Below are positions 14-41,767 of a stretch of 42,998 nucleotides of DNA, in pieces. Position 1 is the first letter of the stretch, and every line of letters begins with the position of its first letter. The notes under the pieces are model-generated. The model was not told the origin of the DNA. It was given only the letters and a program-made list of their open reading frames with translations, and made no database searches. Source of the stretch: a virus; the IMG/VR virus record IMGVR_UViG_3300021368_001718, positions 1 to 42,998 of that record; one strand, 5' to 3'. The position numbers were made by a program, and so were the translations under genes.

Positions 14-823
14 TTATACTCTATTTTCAATCTTTTGTAAACACTTATATGTGTCTTCCCATGAATTAACTGCTACTACTTTTCCGCCTTCTCTTTCAAG
101 TTTTGCTGCAATAGAATAATCATTACCACCAGGCATTGTCTTATCGCCAAAGTATATTACTTTTGTAGCATCAAAGTTTTTTACAATTTGTTCTTTACCC
201 ATCATATGAGGAGTTATATCTATGCCTGTTTCACCAGCTACTGTTGCTACTACTAGATCAGCACTAATATCCCACCATTCTTGTGCATACCATCTTTCAT
301 TAAATCTTTTTGCAATACCTTCTCTTTCTTTTTTATGTTCATCCCATTGCTTATACATTGCTCTGTCTTCAATATTACCCTTACGACCTAGAACACTAAA
401 ATTTAAAAGACCGATACGTTGATCAAAATGATCACCAGTTTTTTTATAAAATCCTGAATCATTCAACTCACCCAATAACCATTTATGATGTTCGTCTGGT
501 AATTTCCAATCACTTCTATGTAATTCTTTATTACCTTGCCATACACTATTACCTGAACATTGATATACTTTTATGCAAAGATTATAAATTTCTGCTGGTA
601 TTTGTTGTAAAGTTTTATACCTGTCGGATCCAGTAATTATATAAACTTCATTTTCTTCTACAAATTTATAAAAGAACTCAGCAAATTCTCTGTCCATCAT
701 ACCACGGCTTGGCGTAAGTGTTCCATCAACATCAAAAATATAAATCATACCTTTTGGTATATTCCAATAATCTTTCTGTTCATCAGTCTCAGCAAATGCT
801 TCTATATCATCACGACTTATCAT
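14..823 (-). CDS. Eukaryotic-type phosphomannomutase (HAD superfamily)
   Basis: Predicted 269-aa cytosolic enzyme interconverting mannose-6-phosphate and mannose-1-phosphate, the step before GDP-mannose. The HAD motif FDVDGT supplies nucleophile Asp31 and acid/base Asp33, and GDKTMPGGND at residues 226-235 is a hallmark of the alpha-PMM (PMM1/PMM2) family. Compared from memory with human PMM2, the three substrate-phosphate arginines (R123, R134, R141) match R136, R147 and R154 at identical spacing. The D181 equivalent is D202, while the S179 equivalent is Gly200. An N-terminal extension of about 25 residues precedes the core. Start ATG overlaps the gp43 stop as ATGA, with GGAGG upstream, so it is cotranscribed with and coupled to the polymerase. 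It could instead act as a sugar-phosphate phosphatase, but conservation of the cap arginines argues for a mutase. Confidence 0.85.
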   Translation of the reverse strand: MISRDDIEAFAETDEQKDYWNIPKGMIYIFDVDGTLTPSRGMMDREFAEFFYKFVEENEVYIITGSDRYKTLQQIPAEIYNLCIKVYQCSGNSVWQGNKELHRSDWKLPDEHHKWLLGELNDSGFYKKTGDHFDQRIGLLNFSVLGRKGNIEDRAMYKQWDEHKKEREGIAKRFNERWYAQEWWDISADLVVATVAGETGIDITPHMMGKEQIVKNFDATKVIYFGDKTMPGGNDYSIAAKLEREGGKVVAVNSWEDTYKCLQKIENRV

Positions 824-3306
824 CCGAAAAAATCCTCCAATGTGTTTTTCTGTTCGACCGACCAGCCAACAGCGTCAAGAATTGGTAAGAGAGGTTCAAT
901 AAATGTTTTATCAAACTGTTTATTGTAATCCACATAATTGTGTAATCCAAGACTTTCAGGCAAATAACCTGGAAATGCAATCACATTTTCTTTAAGTGGA
1001 TTTGGCATACGCATATAACAAAACTTTATCTTCTCTCCGTTTTGAATTAGCGGGTACATTTTGCCAAGTGATTTTTCTTTAATCGAATGATTATACATGA
1101 TAGACCCACGTACGTGGATGGGTGTGCCCTTGGCATATAATGTACTTTTACGAGACCACTTAGTCAAATCTTTTACACCACGTGGAAACGAAACTTCTTC
1201 GGGAGGCAATGATGAAAATGCTTTACGAAAATCTGCAATAAAGCGTTGGGTTTTATTCTCATCACCTTCGATAATAATCTTGAACATCTCTTTGAATTTA
1301 GTACGAACAACTTCTGGAGTTGAAGACTTAATTGCCTCAATGCCCATGATCTTAAGTTTTGGTTCGGCATATTGTACACCTTCAGAGTTGTGTACGTTTA
1401 GAATATATCTTTTCTTTGCCGTCCATATACCACGATTTGCAATAACCTCACGTGCCATAACCATACGATTTGTATAAGCTTGTTGCTTATCGAATAATTC
1501 GGCATAAGATTTCTCTAAGACTTTTTCGAAATGCTCAGAACAAATCTTATCAAGTGCGGCTACTGGATCTTTAGGATTTAGTTGCTTAACTAACGGACCC
1601 ATGTTTATGTATAACGAATCTGTATCCATGGCGATAACATAATCACGATTCTCTGTCTTGAGGATACGATTCATCTCTTTGTTCATGGCTTTCTCAGCCC
1701 ACATGATAGACAACTGACCGGATAAAGTAATACCTTCGGCCATACGCATATCAAAGTAACGAAAGTGTTTGTTACCGAGTGCACCATAAAGTGAGTTTAA
1801 GAGAATCTTAATAGCCATTTGCTGATTCTCAAGTTGATTTATTTCTTTCTCGAGATGGAATGTTTTCTCTTTCTGATACTCACGTTCTTTGGCAAGCATT
1901 TGCTTTTTGACTTCGGAACGTTCGGAATAATAGTCTACAATAATCTGAGGCAAGATACCTTGTTGAGATTTATCATAGGTAGAACCATTGGCTGCAATAG
2001 AAATATTTTCTTTGCGAAAGTTTGTCGGTACAGGATCTGATTCAAGATAACCTAGTACGCCATTTGGTGCTTGAGCCGGTGTGATAGTTTCAGGTGACAT
2101 ATTGTATTGTACAATAAGATTAGGATACAGAGAATTAAGATCGAACGATACAACCCAATCATGTGAACCAACAAACGGTTCTTTCACATAGCCACCTGGA
2201 TATGGGATCTTAGCTTTTGTTTCATTAGGCGGAATGATTATATTCTTTTTGTTTAGTTCACGATATATGATTGAATCCCATATAGCCGTTGTACCAAACG
2301 TGTCAGATAAATTAACACCACCTTTATATGCCACGGTAAGGGCAAGATTGATAAGACCCATCTTATCATCGATACGTTGAACAAGCTGAACGTCTTTGAT
2401 ATTATAATCGATAAATTTTTGGTGATCGTTTTTATAGAGCGTATGAAGACTACCATGTTCCTCATAGGATAACTTCTTCTCACCGAGTACCGTATAACCG
2501 ATGTGATCAAGTTTATAGGATTCTTGAGCACCATAGGAATAACCGAACTTCTTAAACAATTCAAGATAGTCAGCCTGTTCGATACCAACAACTTTATATG
2601 TGCCTTCCATCATACCGGCATCTACAAGATTCCATGGCGATAAACGTTTGACGGCTTGGTCAGAACCAATACGATATAGTCTGTTGATTAAGTATGGCAA
2701 ATCAAAGAATCGTGAGTTCCAACCGGTAATTACATCAGGATAATTGTCAGACCAATACTTAAGAAAGCTGGCTAGCATAGCTTCTTCGGAATCAAACTTT
2801 TTATATTGAATCAGATCACCATGCATTTCTATTTCACATTTTTCTACGTCATAATCACCTAGACCCCATACTTGATATATGGAAGACTTACTGGATTTAA
2901 GAGCAATAGAAATGATTGGATGTAATGCTTCGGCTGGTTCAGGGAATCCATCATCAGATGCAACCTCAATATCGAAATTAACTACGTTGATATGAGATGG
3001 ATTAAATTGAATATCGTTAGGCCACTTTTCAGCAATGAACTGAAATACCCACCGGTCTTGGCCATAGATTTTAAATTCATGAATGTCTTCATAACGTTTC
3101 ATGAATTGTTTAGCTTCACTCATACTCTCAAATTTTATAGGAGCAACAGGTGTTCCATCGAGTGCACGTAATGGTGACTCGTCATTAGATTTAACATAGA
3201 GAGTTGGTTGAAATTTTACTTTAGATTGTATCGGTGCACCAGAATCATTATATCCACGATATAAGATTTGATTCATGTGACGATTTACTGATGTATAGAA
3301 TGACAA
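820..3306 (-). CDS. 43: DNA polymerase gp43 (family B, T4-type)
   Basis: Replicative DNA polymerase with 3'-5' proofreading, 828 aa against about 898 in T4. Exo I is FDIEV with Asp112 and Glu114, exo II is GWNSRFFDLPYL with Asp202, and exo III is YNIKDV. Polymerase motif A is DLNSLYP, motif B is ILLNSLYGALGN and motif C is DTDSLY; KKRY follows. The C-terminus LEDFFG resembles the clamp-binding tail of T4 gp43. The start codon is TTG, 5-6 bases after GGAGGT; the resulting MSFYTSV start fits the family and no earlier ATG is plausible. It has its own sigma70-like promoter (3330-3358) just after a terminator, and its stop overlaps the start of the phosphomannomutase. Confidence 0.97.
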   Translation of the reverse strand: MSFYTSVNRHMNQILYRGYNDSGAPIQSKVKFQPTLYVKSNDESPLRALDGTPVAPIKFESMSEAKQFMKRYEDIHEFKIYGQDRWVFQFIAEKWPNDIQFNPSHINVVNFDIEVASDDGFPEPAEALHPIISIALKSSKSSIYQVWGLGDYDVEKCEIEMHGDLIQYKKFDSEEAMLASFLKYWSDNYPDVITGWNSRFFDLPYLINRLYRIGSDQAVKRLSPWNLVDAGMMEGTYKVVGIEQADYLELFKKFGYSYGAQESYKLDHIGYTVLGEKKLSYEEHGSLHTLYKNDHQKFIDYNIKDVQLVQRIDDKMGLINLALTVAYKGGVNLSDTFGTTAIWDSIIYRELNKKNIIIPPNETKAKIPYPGGYVKEPFVGSHDWVVSFDLNSLYPNLIVQYNMSPETITPAQAPNGVLGYLESDPVPTNFRKENISIAANGSTYDKSQQGILPQIIVDYYSERSEVKKQMLAKEREYQKEKTFHLEKEINQLENQQMAIKILLNSLYGALGNKHFRYFDMRMAEGITLSGQLSIMWAEKAMNKEMNRILKTENRDYVIAMDTDSLYINMGPLVKQLNPKDPVAALDKICSEHFEKVLEKSYAELFDKQQAYTNRMVMAREVIANRGIWTAKKRYILNVHNSEGVQYAEPKLKIMGIEAIKSSTPEVVRTKFKEMFKIIIEGDENKTQRFIADFRKAFSSLPPEEVSFPRGVKDLTKWSRKSTLYAKGTPIHVRGSIMYNHSIKEKSLGKMYPLIQNGEKIKFCYMRMPNPLKENVIAFPGYLPESLGLHNYVDYNKQFDKTFIEPLLPILDAVGWSVEQKNTLEDFFG

Positions 3307-35189: not shown

Positions 35190-36233
35190 CTAACCTATTA
35201 ACTGTCCAGTAAACTCTGGCATATGTATTTGTCCTGAGACATAGTTATTTGTCCAAGCTACATCTACATAATCATTTGCATTTAGTTCCAATATTCCGCC
35301 AAGGTGCTGACATGTCCAAGAGTTTTCTTGAGATTTTTGTGAATACGAAAATGTGCTTTGGTTTAGTCTCATATAAAACCAAAGATAACCAGAACCAAAA
35401 TCTGAGGCTTGGCATTTAAAGGTAAATAGATATCTTCCAGCAATAGGACAAGTAAATCTTCCTGTAGACGGATTAAAATGTGAACCCCTGTTATGACCAT
35501 GATTTACATTTGAAGCCCATACATTACTGCTAGACATAACTTGCGTGCCTGTACCACCAATAACATATGACTTTGACCCTAGATAAGAAAAACCCGGCTG
35601 AGCAGGCATTGTTACACGGCCTGATGGGTCAATCTTCATTTTCTCTGTAACGTAACCAGCAGCAGCTGCTGTAAAAAACGTCATAGTTCCATTACCACTA
35701 GCATCAACCCCCATCCCCACTTGTGCGTAACGAGGCTGTGGTGATCTAGCGCTGTGTGAAGCTTCAATTATTAAACCGTTCATACCACCAGTGTCTGTCG
35801 TACCATTAATAACGTTGTTATTAGTACCCCTTATTTCAACTATTCTTGAAACCGAACCATTATTAGTAGAAGGAGAACTTGAGCCTATGCCGGCATTTGA
35901 GTTAACAATTAAATCGCCACTCATAGTATCGCCAGTCGTATTGACGTATCTTGTATCTGCCTGTGCCTGAGTTTGTGCATCACCAACACTAAACGTATTG
36001 TACTTAACAACTTCTATCTCATCACCGGCCGCTGCCCCTGATGTTAAAGTTATTGCCGTGCCGTTACTTGTATAATCAACAGTTTCGTCTAAGAGCAAAC
36101 CATTCATAAACACTTGTACAAAGCCTTGTGTATGTGATATAGTAAAAGCAGTCTGTCCAGCAGTAGCAGTAAATGTTGTACTACTATAATTACCAGAACC
36201 TATAAGGTTAGCTAAATCTCTTGCTCTTGTCAT
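35190..36233 (-). CDS. Tail fibre protein with C1q-like tip
   Basis: A 347-aa protein. The N-terminal module (RARDLANLIGSGNYSS, then TAGQTAFTI and VQVFMNGLLLDETVDYTS) is shared with the genes at 36243 and 39112. A TRYVNTTGDTMSGDL shaft segment follows. The C-terminal about 130 residues form a C1q/TNF-like domain (HFNPSTGRFTCPIAGRYLF to FTGQLIG). It probably trimerises and binds the host surface; this is inferred from the domain type. Confidence 0.75.
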   Translation of the reverse strand: MTRARDLANLIGSGNYSSTTFTATAGQTAFTISHTQGFVQVFMNGLLLDETVDYTSNGTAITLTSGAAAGDEIEVVKYNTFSVGDAQTQAQADTRYVNTTGDTMSGDLIVNSNAGIGSSSPSTNNGSVSRIVEIRGTNNNVINGTTDTGGMNGLIIEASHSARSPQPRYAQVGMGVDASGNGTMTFFTAAAAGYVTEKMKIDPSGRVTMPAQPGFSYLGSKSYVIGGTGTQVMSSSNVWASNVNHGHNRGSHFNPSTGRFTCPIAGRYLFTFKCQASDFGSGYLWFYMRLNQSTFSYSQKSQENSWTCQHLGGILELNANDYVDVAWTNNYVSGQIHMPEFTGQLIG

Positions 36234-36242
36234 TTTCTTTTC

Positions 36243-37508
36243 CTAAGCTAATAAACACATTGACCAACTAGTCCAGTCGGCATTATCTGGATAACCAAGC
36301 CCAGCAACATAAATTCTAACTGTATCATTCGCGTTTAATTTTACCATTCCACAAAGGATGCTTGTTGCCCATGTATTTTGATTTGCATATGGATCCCAAT
36401 TAAATCCATTATAGTCAATACCATTCACACGAACTTTGTAATTTCCGTAAGCAGTAGAACTACTATAACCATAGTTATTACCAATCATTGCATTTAATTG
36501 ATAAACGCCAGCACAAGGAGAGGTGAATGTTCCTGTACTTGTGTTAAAATGATTTCCTATATTATACGTTACTGTTGCCCAATTTGTAACATACGCACTG
36601 TTATATGCTGCTGCTGTCGTGTGCCTGACGAAAAATGCTGGCTGATTAGGCTTTGTCGTATAACCCTCACTACTAATACGCATTTTTTCTGTATAGGCAC
36701 CACCATTCGAATTAGTAGAAAAAACCATATCACCGCCAGGATCAGTAGCGTTATTAGTAGCTCTATAAGCCTCTACTCCTGCAATAGTGGCACCTGCTCC
36801 TGTTGCTGAAGCGTCATTAAAAAATAAAGAAGCTACTCTTGCACCGCTTGTATCATTGCCATCTCCAATAATATTAACCATTGCAGTCTTTGCACTACCA
36901 GTATCAGAAGCTACTGCTAATATCCCATGACCGGTTCCAAAACTATTAGCATCTGGAGTAGTTGTGTTTATACCAACCTGGCCATAATGATTGATACGCA
37001 TTTTTTCATTATTTTCTGTCTCAAATATTAACGGTTTACCACCTGCTTGTGAGCTTATAAAAGAATTGCCGGCAGAATTATTACCAACTATCATTGAACC
37101 TGCACTATTTTGTGTCTTTAAAAATACATTTGTAGTATCATTATTTTCTAAATGTAATTTTTCATCTATTGTAGTTGCACCGATACCAACATTACCAGTA
37201 AACGTACCACCTGAAGCAGGTACATAATCACTATTTGGTATATCTGTTTGTAATGCTACTATACTAATAATATCATTAAGGTTGGCCGCAGATGCTAGTG
37301 TAACTGTATTACCATTACTAGTAGTAAAGTCACTCTCATCCATTAGGATACCATTGACATAGACTTCGATTTGTCCGTCAGTAAATCCTAATGTTTTACT
37401 ATCATCGTCAGCGCCAGTAAATGCTGTCTGCCCTTGAGTGGCAGTAAAGTCAAACTTAGCTCTTCCGAACGATCTAACGTCTTTAGGTTGTGTACCAATA
37501 TATGCCAT
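36243..37508 (-). CDS. Tail fibre protein with C1q-like tip
   Basis: A 421-aa protein. The N-terminal module MAYIGTQPKDVRSFG, then TQGQTAFTG and IEVYVNGILMDESDFTTS is the same type as at 35190 and 39112. The shaft has GNVGIGATTIDEKLHL and a second EKMRIN segment typical of fibre collars. The C-terminal C1q-like domain runs from HFNTSTGTFTSPCAGVYQL to the end. It is separated from its neighbours by 4-9 bases. Confidence 0.75.
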   Translation of the reverse strand: MAYIGTQPKDVRSFGRAKFDFTATQGQTAFTGADDDSKTLGFTDGQIEVYVNGILMDESDFTTSNGNTVTLASAANLNDIISIVALQTDIPNSDYVPASGGTFTGNVGIGATTIDEKLHLENNDTTNVFLKTQNSAGSMIVGNNSAGNSFISSQAGGKPLIFETENNEKMRINHYGQVGINTTTPDANSFGTGHGILAVASDTGSAKTAMVNIIGDGNDTSGARVASLFFNDASATGAGATIAGVEAYRATNNATDPGGDMVFSTNSNGGAYTEKMRISSEGYTTKPNQPAFFVRHTTAAAYNSAYVTNWATVTYNIGNHFNTSTGTFTSPCAGVYQLNAMIGNNYGYSSSTAYGNYKVRVNGIDYNGFNWDPYANQNTWATSILCGMVKLNANDTVRIYVAGLGYPDNADWTSWSMCLLA

Positions 37509-37512
37509 TTTT

Positions 37513-38004
37513 TTATCCTACTAAGTATCCACAAAAGAATGAATAACTTGGGTCTGCATACCAATCATCTGCATCACTATTTGAAATTTTTCCCCAGACC
37601 TCTATATAGTCATTTGTTGTTAATTGTAGAGTTGTACTAGTTTGAACGGTATCACCTTGTGTACTATCACTTGCAAAAGCATCAACTGTCGAACCATTAC
37701 GCTTTATTCTTATTTGGGATTCCGTATTTGCATCATGATAAAATTGACCAACAAACATGTATACACCATTACATGGTGCAACAAATTTATAATTACTTGT
37801 ATCCCAATGCCCACCAACATTATGTTGTGTAGCATTAAAAGGCATTTTAGTATCGTTTGTACTTCCAAAGGATTGCCAACCAGAAGATGAACTATAAGCT
37901 TTAAAAGCTGGCCTAGCTGGAGTTAAAGGTCTACCACTACTATCTATAGTTAACGCAGTTGTGCCACCAGTATTCTGTATTGAATCAACTTTTAAAACAC
38001 TCAT
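37513..38004 (-). CDS. Short fibre protein with C1q-like domain
   Basis: A 163-aa protein with the short N-terminal tag MSVLKVDSIQ and little shaft before a C1q-like domain (HWDTSNYKFVAPCNGVYMF, LQLTTNDYIEVWGK, FFCGYLVG). Similar N-terminal tags begin the proteins at 38001, 38582 and 40310. The start overlaps the preceding gene stop as ATGA. It is likely an accessory tip or short fibre. Confidence 0.7.
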   Translation of the reverse strand: MSVLKVDSIQNTGGTTALTIDSSGRPLTPARPAFKAYSSSSGWQSFGSTNDTKMPFNATQHNVGGHWDTSNYKFVAPCNGVYMFVGQFYHDANTESQIRIKRNGSTVDAFASDSTQGDTVQTSTTLQLTTNDYIEVWGKISNSDADDWYADPSYSFFCGYLVG

Positions 38005-38585
38005 TGGGCTATCTCCTGAAGCGTTAAAGTAGAAATTGGCCTTGGACTATTACTTATATTACTAGCTCTGTTTATATACAGAGGGTTTGACGTTCCAACT
38101 CCACCATCATTAGTCCAGAATTTTAAAGCATATGTTTGTTGCGAGGTAGAAGATGGACTATCTAAAATTGTATGGCTAAAAGAAAAGGGTGCCCAGTTTT
38201 GTGCCGTTCCGCTATTGCCAGATTGAAGATTATAACTTTCTGCTGTTCTAACACCAATGCCGCTACCTTGGTAGCCACCACTAGACCAATTACCATCTGT
38301 AGCATTCGTATCAGTTCCAAGAGTTATATCTGTAGAGCCACGAAATATACCTAAATAACCAGTGTAATAGTTATTATGCCATGCCCATGTTTGCATCATA
38401 ACTAATATCTTTGAAGACGTACTTGATGGTGTAATGTTAATAGACATCATCGTCGTTGGTGTTTTTGAAGTTGTTGATGTTAAAGTGTCATATGTTGCTG
38501 TAACAGTTTTTATGACATGACCAGGAATAGCCACCCCATTACCAGTAGTCTTTTCGTTTATAGTATCTACTTTTAGGATACTCAT
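38001..38585 (-). CDS. Short fibre / structural protein, MSxLKVDxI type
   Basis: A 194-aa protein. It has the N-terminal tag MSILKVDTINEKTTGNGVAI, then a beta-rich domain beginning HVIKTVTATYDT and including INITPSSTSSKILVMMQ, a module seen in many marine phage structural proteins. It has no C1q signature. ATGA overlaps at both its start (with the 177-aa gene) and its end (with the 163-aa gene). Its role in the virion is not known. Confidence 0.65.
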   Translation of the reverse strand: MSILKVDTINEKTTGNGVAIPGHVIKTVTATYDTLTSTTSKTPTTMMSINITPSSTSSKILVMMQTWAWHNNYYTGYLGIFRGSTDITLGTDTNATDGNWSSGGYQGSGIGVRTAESYNLQSGNSGTAQNWAPFSFSHTILDSPSSTSQQTYALKFWTNDGGVGTSNPLYINRASNISNSPRPISTLTLQEIAQ

Positions 38586-39115
38586 TGTTTGATCTCCCTA
38601 ATAACAAATAAGCTTCCTGTTTGACCACCATATGTATGACCCCAGACGTTACCCGAACCAGTCTCATTATAGAATTGAACTTGAATATTCCTAGTATTAA
38701 TATTACCAGGACTGTAGTAAGCTAAAAATGTATGCCTAGCAACATCACCATCAGTATTCACACCAGCATGCTTATGAACACCTGTCCTTTCTATTTGATA
38801 AGAATCGGTGGTATCATAAAACCTCCAGCGAATATCTTGTTGATTTCTGCCCATAGAATAGTTTATATACAATTCTAATAGACTATCAGCATATAAGGGG
38901 GTAAAAGCAATAGTACCTGTTGCAATCCAAGCGGAGCTTGAGGATGTAGATATATCCGTAGCTCTTCTATTATATTTATGTTGTACCATGTATCCTGCAT
39001 TTGGTACAAGCGTTGCTGCACTAGCATCTAGTGTTTGGCCAGATGGTACGATAATCTTATTAGCATTAGCTCCGCTAGTAATACCTGTTAGATTTTCTAC
39101 TTTTATTGTACTCAT
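38582..39115 (-). CDS. Short fibre / structural protein, MSTIKVENL type
   Basis: A 177-aa protein. The tag MSTIKVENLTGITSGANANK leads into IIVPSGQTLDASAAT and then a beta domain (AWIATGTIAFTPLYADSLLEL, shortened here) of the same general type as the 194-aa protein downstream. Coupled by ATGA overlaps on both sides. Function inferred only from its place in the fibre array. Confidence 0.65.
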   Translation of the reverse strand: MSTIKVENLTGITSGANANKIIVPSGQTLDASAATLVPNAGYMVQHKYNRRATDISTSSSSAWIATGTIAFTPLYADSLLELYINYSMGRNQQDIRWRFYDTTDSYQIERTGVHKHAGVNTDGDVARHTFLAYYSPGNINTRNIQVQFYNETGSGNVWGHTYGGQTGSLFVIREIKQ

Positions 39116-39579
39116 ATGATCACCAAGTTACCATTTACTGTAAGTGTTATACCAGATGCTACATTAATAGGACCATTAGCACTGGCATTTTGTCCACTGG
39201 GTATAGTTGTATCAGTAGACATTGTTTGTTCATTAGTTTGAAACAAAGCAGTCTTCATAGTATTCTGAGTTGTATCATATATGGGAGCTCTAATACTAGA
39301 TGCAAATGTACCGCCACCCGAAAGTGTCGGTGCATCAGCTACACTAAATGTATTATGGCATATAATAGTTATTTCATCATTAAGCGCAGCTCCAGTTCCA
39401 AAAACTACTGTTGTACCCGTTGTGGCTGTATAGTCACTAGGTTGCAACAATATTCCATTTTGATATACGTCTACTGCTCCTGCACTATAAACTACGTTAA
39501 ACGTTGTTTGATTAGCAGTGGCAATAAATGTATATGCTCTTCTAGTGCCTTCAGTTAATGTTTGTCCTATATAGGCCAT
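39112..39579 (-). CDS. Short fibre N-terminal-type protein
   Basis: A 155-aa protein. It has the N-terminal module MAYIGQTLTEGTRRAYTF, then ATANQTTFNVVY and VDVYQNGILLQPSDYTAT, as in the larger fibres at 35190 and 36243. It ends after a short NGPINVASGITLTVNGNLVII beta-prism-like segment, without a C1q tip. It may be a complete small fibre or the base of a multi-chain fibre. The stop overlaps the next gene as ATGA. Confidence 0.65.
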   Translation of the reverse strand: MAYIGQTLTEGTRRAYTFIATANQTTFNVVYSAGAVDVYQNGILLQPSDYTATTGTTVVFGTGAALNDEITIICHNTFSVADAPTLSGGGTFASSIRAPIYDTTQNTMKTALFQTNEQTMSTDTTIPSGQNASANGPINVASGITLTVNGNLVII

Positions 39580-39603
39580 TATACATTTTCCTCAATATGA
39601 GTA

Positions 39604-39882
39604 TTATTCTCTATTTGCTAATTCAGCTGCTGCGTCTGAGTCTCGTTGAGCCGCAGTTTTTACCCAACCTCGAGTAAAAGCATCTGCTACAATTAGTTCT
39701 CTAGTTGCAGGAATTGCAACACCGTCATCAAGTGCCTTAGTTGTGTAAAGATTTACGATTTCATCGACCGCTATTCGTGCACGGTTAGTCGCTGCATTGT
39801 CAATCCAATCTTGAACATTACTAGCGGCGTACTCCATACCTTTATTCTCTGTATCTGTCAGAGTAATAGTAAAATCAACCAT
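39604..39882 (-). CDS. Conserved 92-aa protein of the fibre cluster
   Basis: Unknown function. A short beta start (MVDFTITLTDTENKGMEY) is followed by a helical domain (NVQDWIDNAATNRARIAVDE, IVNLYTTKALDDGV) and an acidic Ala-rich tail. I recall similar small proteins next to fibre genes in other marine phages but no assigned role; a virion or chaperone role is a guess. It lies eleven bases from its upstream neighbour. Confidence 0.6.
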   Translation of the reverse strand: MVDFTITLTDTENKGMEYAASNVQDWIDNAATNRARIAVDEIVNLYTTKALDDGVAIPATRELIVADAFTRGWVKTAAQRDSDAAAELANRE

Positions 39883-39893
39883 TTATTTGTCTC

Positions 39894-40280
39894 CTATGAT
39901 GGTTTAGTTGGCCATACAACAGTATCAAGACTATTGTATGTATTTGTAATATCTCGAAGAGCCTGACGATATGTCGTTCTATCCGAGTTCATTGTGAGAT
40001 CTGATGATGCCCACCAATCAGTCGCCGCAAGACGACTATTTCTTTCTTCGCGGAGCAATCTCATTGGCTCTGCGTTTACTAATTCTGTTTTTTTAGTATT
40101 GACCTGATCCCATGTTACACCAAAGTCTGCTGGATTACTTGATTCAATGGCTGAGCCATTAGCATCTGCTCCAGTTACTTTTGCGAACATAGAATTAAAT
40201 TCTGTTTCATTTGTAGGCTCACCGCGCATAACCCATTCGGTTATACCCAATGCGCCTAACGCTGTTGCTACATCTGTCAT
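39894..40280 (-). CDS. Putative tail fibre assembly / chaperone-like protein
   Basis: A 128-aa protein. The C-terminal part PMRLLREERNSRLAATDWWA with YRQALRDITNTYN and VVWPTKPS is the pattern of the phage tail assembly chaperone-like family, where an R-x3-L-x2-(S/T)D-W element precedes a YRQALR element and a final W-P. The N-terminal 60 residues are helical (GALGITEWVMRGEPTNETEF). A possible late box lies just upstream at 40303-40310. Confidence 0.65.
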   Translation of the reverse strand: MTDVATALGALGITEWVMRGEPTNETEFNSMFAKVTGADANGSAIESSNPADFGVTWDQVNTKKTELVNAEPMRLLREERNSRLAATDWWASSDLTMNSDRTTYRQALRDITNTYNSLDTVVWPTKPS

Positions 40281-40302
40281 TTATTTTTTCCTTATTTTTT
40301 TC

Positions 40303-40310
40303 TATTTATC
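40303..40310 (-). promoter_or_regulatory. Possible late promoter within the fibre array
   Basis: The minus strand reads GATAAATA, one base from consensus, overlapping the stop of the 176-aa gene and 23 bases upstream of the next gene. Confidence 0.4.
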
Positions 40311-40840
40311 TAACTTGATACATAATGAGCTGTCATACATGTTCTTCTGTTACTGCCCATAAATATATCAGTTCCTGCTACACTATCGTAAATATACCCA
40401 TACAATTGTATATAATCTGATGATCCATTCAAATATACTAACGTGCTAAATGTCGAGTAGATATCATCACCATCAGCTTCAGCCCCCATCCAAAGAATAC
40501 CTGCTTGGTAATTTGAACCATTTTTATATAATACTGGTCCAGCCGCTCTAATATTTCCTGTTCCAGAAGTTAAACAACAACTTACACTATAGTATCCTGC
40601 TGTTTGTGGTTGCCACTTTTCATTAGCACTATTCCATGCACCTGTATTATCAATGTCTACTGCACCGTTAGTAGAAAAAGGTACCAAGTGATAATTATTA
40701 CTTGAATAGGTTCCTGTATTAGATGTTAGTGCTACACTGAGACAAGGAACCTTAGGGGCAATAAATCCACTACTATTAATAGTAATGCCATTGGTACCAT
40801 TTGAATGTTGTATTTCATTTACTTTTAAAATAGATGTCAT
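40310..40840 (-). CDS. Short fibre protein with C1q-like domain
   Basis: A 176-aa protein. The tag MTSILKVNEIQHSNGTNGI precedes a C1q-like domain with WNSANEKWQPQTAGYYSVSC, ILWMGAEADGDD, STLVYLNGSSDYIQLYGYIY and the closing MTAHYVSS. It is the same tag-plus-tip layout as the 163-aa protein at 37513, but the sequences are diverged. Confidence 0.7.
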   Translation of the reverse strand: MTSILKVNEIQHSNGTNGITINSSGFIAPKVPCLSVALTSNTGTYSSNNYHLVPFSTNGAVDIDNTGAWNSANEKWQPQTAGYYSVSCCLTSGTGNIRAAGPVLYKNGSNYQAGILWMGAEADGDDIYSTFSTLVYLNGSSDYIQLYGYIYDSVAGTDIFMGSNRRTCMTAHYVSS

Positions 40841-40849
40841 ATTTATTTC

Positions 40850-41767
40850 CTACGCAATCATATATCCACCAAAGTGACCCCATGCACCTGTACCCATATG
40901 AAACGGGTGGCTACTAGTACCAGAATATTCTCCATATAAACTTACAAAATCATTTGCTGCCAAATAAATCATTACAGAATATTGTTGGCTTTCCCAAGAA
41001 TCATCTGTTCTACCTGATGGTTCCCATCTCATATAGTTAGAATTATTTTTACGAATTGCAATTCTTGATTGAACAATCAGTCTGTTCCACATTACTGAAA
41101 AATAATATCGGCCACCTATAGGTGCAGTAAAGGTTCCGCCACTAAAACTATTAGTCTGATCATAAGCTTCTGCCCAGTTCCATCCAGCGCCACTTGTTAT
41201 ATATTCAGCAGCAGAAGCAGGGTTGGGATCATTTGTAGTATATGCATAGAAAGCCGGCTGATTAGGCATATTAATATACCCATGTTTACTAATATTCATC
41301 TGCTTGGTAAGAGTTCCACCATTAGCTGTATGAAATTCCATATTAGCAGCTTCAGTACCAACTGCATCATCCTCTAAGTAATTATATATTCCTGCATTAG
41401 TTTGGCCTCTAAAGTCTTTAAATATATAACCAGATTTGTGACCACCTGATGTGCCTGAATATTTTATAGCGATAGTATCATGACCAGTATCGCCTTTTAC
41501 AGTTAAACCATCTGATGGTGTTGTATCTCCAATACCAACTTTACCAGTTGTATCAATTCTCATCTTTTCAGAATTATCTAGGTCAAATGTCATGACCGTA
41601 TCATTATCGTCATTATCAGCGTCTGCTTTAAAGCTTATTTCATTGCCATCTACTCGCATTGCAAATTCAGAGCCAGCAGCAGAAGATACATTTAAAATAT
41701 CGCCATTCGGTCCACTAATAGATAATGGATTATCTTTGAGTGTAGCTAAATCTTTAGACTTACCCAT
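40850..41767 (-). CDS. Tail fibre protein with C1q-like tip
   Basis: A 305-aa protein. The N-terminus MGKSKDLATLKDNPLSISGP is followed by shaft segments with SEKMRIDTTGKVGIGDTTPS (a collar-like KVGIG motif) and KQMNISKHGYINMPNQPAFY. The C-terminal C1q-like domain begins GTFTAPIGGRYYFSVMWNR and ends in WGHFGGYMIA. The start overlaps the upstream stop as TAATG. Confidence 0.75.
   Translation of the reverse strand: MGKSKDLATLKDNPLSISGPNGDILNVSSAAGSEFAMRVDGNEISFKADADNDDNDTVMTFDLDNSEKMRIDTTGKVGIGDTTPSDGLTVKGDTGHDTIAIKYSGTSGGHKSGYIFKDFRGQTNAGIYNYLEDDAVGTEAANMEFHTANGGTLTKQMNISKHGYINMPNQPAFYAYTTNDPNPASAAEYITSGAGWNWAEAYDQTNSFSGGTFTAPIGGRYYFSVMWNRLIVQSRIAIRKNNSNYMRWEPSGRTDDSWESQQYSVMIYLAANDFVSLYGEYSGTSSHPFHMGTGAWGHFGGYMIA

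Follow-up and report, generated by a model that had tools for sequence, protein, structure and literature searches.

Alpha-phosphomannomutases (alpha-PMMs) of family PF03332 are typical of eukaryotes, where human PMM1 and PMM2 and yeast Sec53 combine a HAD core with a C2b cap. In PMM1, Ser188 lies within the patch that binds mannose 1-phosphate (PMC5736207). A solved bacterial member of the same fold family is the alpha-phosphoglucomutase of Lactococcus (4bnd). Among phages, a mannose-6-phosphate isomerase has been published for cyanophage S-SCSM1 (PMC9602691), lipopolysaccharide gene clusters for cyanophages S-SSM7 and P-SSM2 (PMC3037559), and cytidylyltransferase genes of unclear role have also been reported (PMC9146016). 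The isomerase and the clusters are phage-borne mannose or envelope-sugar genes, as is the gene described here, and the relevant passages of PMC9602691 and PMC3037559 make no mention of an alpha-PMM or of a nucleotidyltransferase partner. No report of a phage alpha-PMM or of its pairing with a nucleotidyltransferase was found in the open-access literature, which is weak evidence, nor did any paper found there list a phosphomannomutase among the auxiliary metabolic genes of phages.

The window, that is, the whole stretch of 42,998 bases analysed here, is a T4-like fragment from a marine phage, with a gp43 DNA polymerase closest to that of Phage C48C1 (Kyanoviridae, 57%). The PMM gene (Table 1) has an ATG start, lies where the earlier note had placed an alpha-PMM gene, and ends 13 bases from the window edge. 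Its product matched the PF03332 profile with an E-value of 8.6e-17 and 62.1 bits (cut-off 22.4) and phrog_29277 at 2.1e-63, while general HAD models gave weak matches only; the best solved-structure matches by sequence were all eukaryotic and of the PMM1/PMM2 type. With dN/dS of 0.16–0.24 against relatives of 80–86% identity, the gene is kept by purifying selection. In IMG/VR, at least 559 PMM-family matches were confirmed among at least 599 candidate stretches. As phrog_29277 is labelled "unknown function", these results give a probable function to a large phage family, and place the enzyme family of a human disease (PMM2) widely among marine phages.

Table 1. Position of the PMM gene and associated features in the window.
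Feature	Position	Strand	Basis or remark
Alpha-phosphomannomutase family gene, phrog_29277, 269 aa	14..823	-	Profiles, fold, residues
N-terminal extension, 25 residues	749..823	-	75-base insertion relative to L004/L005, immediately following the ATGA junction
FDVDGTLT motif with the nucleophile (D31) and the acid/base residue (D33)	713..736	-
Cap segment with R136, R147, R154 (PMM1 R132, R143, R150)	362..418	-
FGDKTMPGGND metal-binding motif	119..151	-
ATGA shared by the gp43 stop codon and the PMM start codon	820..823	-
GGAGG, Shine-Dalgarno-like, within the gp43 3' end	834..838	-	Sequence
gp43 DNA polymerase, 828 aa, upstream member of the overlap	820..3306	-

The active site is complete. In an alignment of 44 phage and 4 eukaryotic rows, plus other bacterial ones, D31, D33, R40, R136, R147, R154, D202, K210, G226-D227 and N234-D235 were identical in all 44 phage and all 4 eukaryotic rows. 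These include the signature of the PF03332 family, an Asp pair followed by GTLT and a core Arg (D31, D33 and R40 in 44/44 phage rows), as well as the three cap arginines that bind the sugar phosphate and the cap Asp (R136, R147, R154 and D202, again 44/44). The earlier observation that the catalytic Asp pair and three substrate-phosphate arginines are retained thus holds for every phage row. The motifs DVDGTLT and FGDKTMPGGND and the catalytic and phosphate-binding residues are all common to the phage proteins, PMM1, PMM2 and Sec53. The Lactococcus alpha-phosphoglucomutase, in contrast, has K, Q, K and N at the positions of R40, R147, R154 and D202, so that by these residues the phage proteins are PMM-like. 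Differences from the eukaryotic enzymes were nevertheless found: identity is 20–26% in structural alignment, and the window clade carries the 25-residue N-terminal extension and about 10 additional cap residues. Ile-Ser at PMM1 positions 187–188 is replaced by Thr-Gly in all 44 phage rows, Ser188 being present in the 4 eukaryotic ones, and the position of PMM1 Met186 is mostly Glu in the phage rows. Because this clade-wide change affects a residue of the mannose 1-phosphate-binding patch of PMM1, the specificity of the phage enzymes may differ. The N-terminal extension is nearly invariant among close relatives of the window and has no counterpart in L004 and L005.

A structural model of the window protein, built from 23 sequences, had a pLDDT of 87 and a pTM of 0.76, with weak spots in about the first 25 residues and in one cap loop. 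The predicted fold comprises the PMM core and the C2b cap. When the model was compared with the PDB using Foldseek, the top 22 matches were all PMMs (E-values 7e-20 to 2e-16), followed by the Lactococcus alpha-phosphoglucomutase (2e-15) and by other HAD enzymes from 2e-11. The predicted fold is therefore far closer to solved PMMs than to other HAD enzymes.

Phylogenetic analysis by maximum likelihood (50 rows) grouped the phage proteins into one clade (support 98/92), which included L033, a contig of phage-like appearance. The sister of this clade was a sequence from a Flavobacteriales metagenome-assembled genome (100/98), whereas the eukaryotic PMMs formed their own clade (100/100); the deeper branching order was not resolved in this tree. 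Uniting phage and eukaryotic proteins was compatible with the data in an AU test (p = 0.175). The family is indeed uncommon in bacteria, as had been proposed, PF03332 being found in 1 of 14 control genomes and in 12/289, 3/296 and 25/192 genomes of three sampled groups. Together, the tree and the occurrence data indicate that "eukaryotic" is here the name of a family and not a demonstrated source. The label given earlier is appropriate for family membership, but not for grouping in the tree, where direct transfer from a eukaryote to a phage finds no support, although the AU test did not reject the corresponding grouping.

Comparative analysis of the gene neighbourhood was based on 99 phage loci, which fell into 34 clusters at 70% PMM identity. 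A nucleotidyltransferase with a HIGH motif was present within 6 kb of the PMM gene in 18 of the 34 clusters, and in 13 of them it was the next gene (nine downstream, four upstream), compared with 2.6 expected under random placement among the ORFs. The other 16 clusters had no nucleotidyltransferase within 6 kb, some of their contigs being short. In three relatives of the window clade (L005, L044 and L045), the nucleotidyltransferase lies 3–5 kb downstream of the PMM gene, and the window stops short of this point. It also adjoins a distant PMM homologue (24% identity) of an Acinetobacter phage. The partner shares its HIGH motif and, in a model, its fold with the cytidylyl- and adenylyltransferases TagD and HldC and the C-domain of HldE, but scored far below the equivalog cut-offs of both TIGR01518 (72 against 165 bits) and TIGR02199 (70 against 181 bits), and is linked to PMM and mannose-6-phosphate isomerase (PMI) genes instead of glycerol or teichoic-acid genes. 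Genes for NDP-sugar dehydrogenases, epimerases, a cupin and KDO-8-phosphate synthase were also recurrent near phage PMM genes. KDO-8-phosphate synthase-type genes were located at L008:14889-15665 (above the NCBIfam cut-off) and L066:2437-3231 (a Pfam match to the DAHP-synthase family). The cupin was considered as a mannose isomerase and rejected, its match being generic, with WbuC-like scores below cut-off and an E-value of 0.066 to a mannose-6-phosphate isomerase structure. In the T4-like Acinetobacter phage AB1I1M-1, a distant PMM-like HAD gene (L116:3986-4735) lies near genes annotated as glucosyltransferases. A tryptophan-halogenase-like gene adjoins the PMM gene in L070 (6733-7995) and a sugar nucleotidyltransferase gene in S-SSM7 (107510-108997).

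Among the cellular relatives, the PMM gene is directly 3' of a ManC-type gene in L034, L035, L037 and L039 (confirmed by domain check in L035 and L037), and Alphaproteobacteria have both ManC–PMM pairs and operons of mannose isomerase, PMM and nucleotidyltransferase. The order PMI, PMM and HIGH-type nucleotidyltransferase is found in L121 and L126, and the last two genes are retained in L124 and L125. In a member of the Patescibacteria, nucleotidyltransferase and PMM form a single protein (L139:937-2184, plus strand) encoded beside a GH130 mannoside phosphorylase; in L040 the two genes overlap, again with GH130 next. Two large phage contigs bearing PMM encode a HIGH-type nucleotidyltransferase fused to PMI (PF01050; L148:9893-10660, minus strand, and L149:8539-9399, plus strand). 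These fusions share the pathway step and the PMI domain with the bifunctional PMI/GDP-mannose pyrophosphorylase AlgA/ManC, with a HIGH-fold nucleotidyltransferase in place of the GT-A one. Two nucleotidyltransferase subfamilies can be distinguished, a TagD-like one that adjoins phage PMM and one fused to PMM or PMI, and the two need not share one function. The second type, with the concordant motifs GGFDPxHxGH, WLxxKKG, FANGGDR and SSS, occurred in 8 of 50,697 phage records, and was present in S-SSM7, S-SSM6a and P-TIM68, the only isolates with a member of the PMM clade. Both types also occur in phages lacking PMM, indicating that the link between PMM and nucleotidyltransferase is not obligatory.

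Taken as a whole, the data are probably best explained by a HAD-type mutase that acts with a HIGH-type nucleotidyltransferase to provide a nucleotide sugar for glycans. Judged from its sequence and predicted structure, the window protein would be a working phosphohexomutase of the alpha-PMM family. It would interconvert the 6- and 1-phosphates of a hexose with mannose configuration via a phospho-Asp31 intermediate, most likely turning mannose 6-phosphate into mannose 1-phosphate. The sugar 1-phosphate could then be activated by the HIGH-motif nucleotidyltransferase of the phage or, in phages that lack this enzyme, by host ManC, and passed to phage dehydrogenases and epimerases and to phage or host glycosyltransferases, so that the host envelope might be changed or the virion decorated. 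Starting from the family, active site, fold, purifying selection and gene linkage described above, we infer the substrate, the nucleotide used, the partner gene in the window phage and the final glycan. The earlier suggestion that the enzyme may feed GDP-mannose synthesis fits in its link to sugar activation, but GDP-mannose in particular finds no support, as no PF00483 enzyme (ManC/GalU-type) was found in 18 records of related phages, which included two complete isolates, and the recurrent partner is of the HIGH type. The window ORFs that were tested contained no recognisable gene for GDP-mannose synthesis or for a glycosyltransferase, and apart from PMM no glycan gene was recognised in the window.

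Since fusions and operons connect isomerase, PMM and HIGH-type nucleotidyltransferase pairwise, they are best explained by one ManC-free pathway from fructose 6-phosphate through mannose 6-phosphate and mannose 1-phosphate to a nucleotide sugar. For phage PMM proper, the strongest support for such a role, which would supply surface or virion glycans with an activated sugar resembling mannose, comes from adjacency. A more specific proposal, put forward tentatively and with slightly more doubt than confidence, is that phages and some bacteria obtain activated mannose by means of PMI, alpha-PMM and a mannose-1-phosphate nucleotidyltransferase of the HIGH superfamily, non-homologous to GDP-mannose pyrophosphorylase, as suggested by the pairwise fusions in Patescibacteria and phages and the alphaproteobacterial operon. 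The linkage predicts an unrecognised mannose-1-phosphate-activating enzyme that takes the place of ManC; if so, many phage genes annotated as glycerol-3-phosphate cytidylyltransferase or HldE would have to be reinterpreted.

An unlikely alternative, though not a negligible one, is that an ordinary phosphomannomutase tops up host mannose 1-phosphate for conversion to GDP-mannose by host ManC, and that the phage nucleotidyltransferase serves another pathway, for example one to CDP-glycerol. The ManC genes beside several bacterial PMM relatives, the lack of PF00483 enzymes in the 18 phage records and the TagD-like enzyme of phages without PMM are all consistent with this, but the adjacency of PMM and nucleotidyltransferase recurs in both gene orders, and the fusion of the second nucleotidyltransferase type to PMM or PMI argues for a joint pathway. 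It would be more surprising still if the protein had kept the PMM fold but lost mutase activity, for instance through the fixed Ser-to-Gly change, and were simply a HAD phosphatase acting on sugar or nucleotide phosphates; we regard this as very improbable. The replacement of Ile-Ser by Thr-Gly is fixed in all phage members, and human PMM1 has phosphatase activity too (PMC5736207); however, the cap arginine trio and core Arg, needed to bind sugar phosphates in both orientations, are invariant, and the gene is under purifying selection.

The enzyme might instead be a mutase or bisphosphate phosphatase that supplies glycero-manno-heptose 1-phosphate, from which an HldC/HldE-like nucleotidyltransferase would make an ADP-heptose-type sugar, a reading to which we give little weight. 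The partner scores equally with heptose-1-phosphate adenylyltransferase and TagD models, its predicted structure matches HldC, and KDO-8-phosphate synthase genes are close by in L008 and L066. S-SSM7 and P-TIM68 also hold a heptose-like cassette with a kinase and genes annotated as phosphoheptose isomerase, which is why this reading was kept. Against it, all nucleotidyltransferase scores are below curated cut-offs, and the cellular relatives indicate mannose (ManC, PMI, GH130). Matches to SIS_2 (GmhA-type) were found in none of the 18 records, so that a GmhA-based route was rejected, and PfkB kinase in two, both cyanophages. P-SSM2 and S-SM2 share several of the cassette genes according to the relevant part of PMC3037559, and gave no PMM match in our search of phage records, suggesting that the cassette is independent of PMM.

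The preferred reading, mutase and HIGH-type nucleotidyltransferase together, does not depend on the position next to gp43. In the window, the gp43 stop and the PMM start share an ATGA, with a GGAGG ten bases upstream; the overlap is conserved in the window clade, recurs in L006, L055 and L079, and is absent from L067 and L072. Accordingly, the earlier description of the gene as fused into the polymerase transcript stands as regards the overlap and common direction, but not as a fusion to gp43. A fused gp43–PMM frame in L044 was rejected, as it results from a single extra G and the near-identical L045 has separate frames. Production together with the polymerase, as proposed earlier, is not essential to function, since homologues are found at many other sites, for example next to gp41 or in the region that separates terminase from tail genes.

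The slot after gp43 is occupied by the PMM-linked nucleotidyltransferase in cyanophages Sf-FS3 (L156), S-SSM7 (L153), P-TIM68 (L154) and S-SCSM2R (L155), and genes for an epimerase and a UDP-glucose dehydrogenase lie in the gp43–uvsX interval of C48C1, so that the slot is a recurrent site for sugar-activation genes. In Sf-FS3 the nucleotidyltransferase gene overlaps gp43 by 4 bases. Directly 3' of PMM, the window clade has a gene of the PRA-PH family (phosphoribosyl-ATP pyrophosphohydrolase type; L003:3569-4024 and L005:6903-7313). Elsewhere in the window, positions 35190-41767 contain a tail-fibre-like gene array with four copies of a phrog_15750 module, inside which lies a tail-fibre assembly gene (39894-40280).
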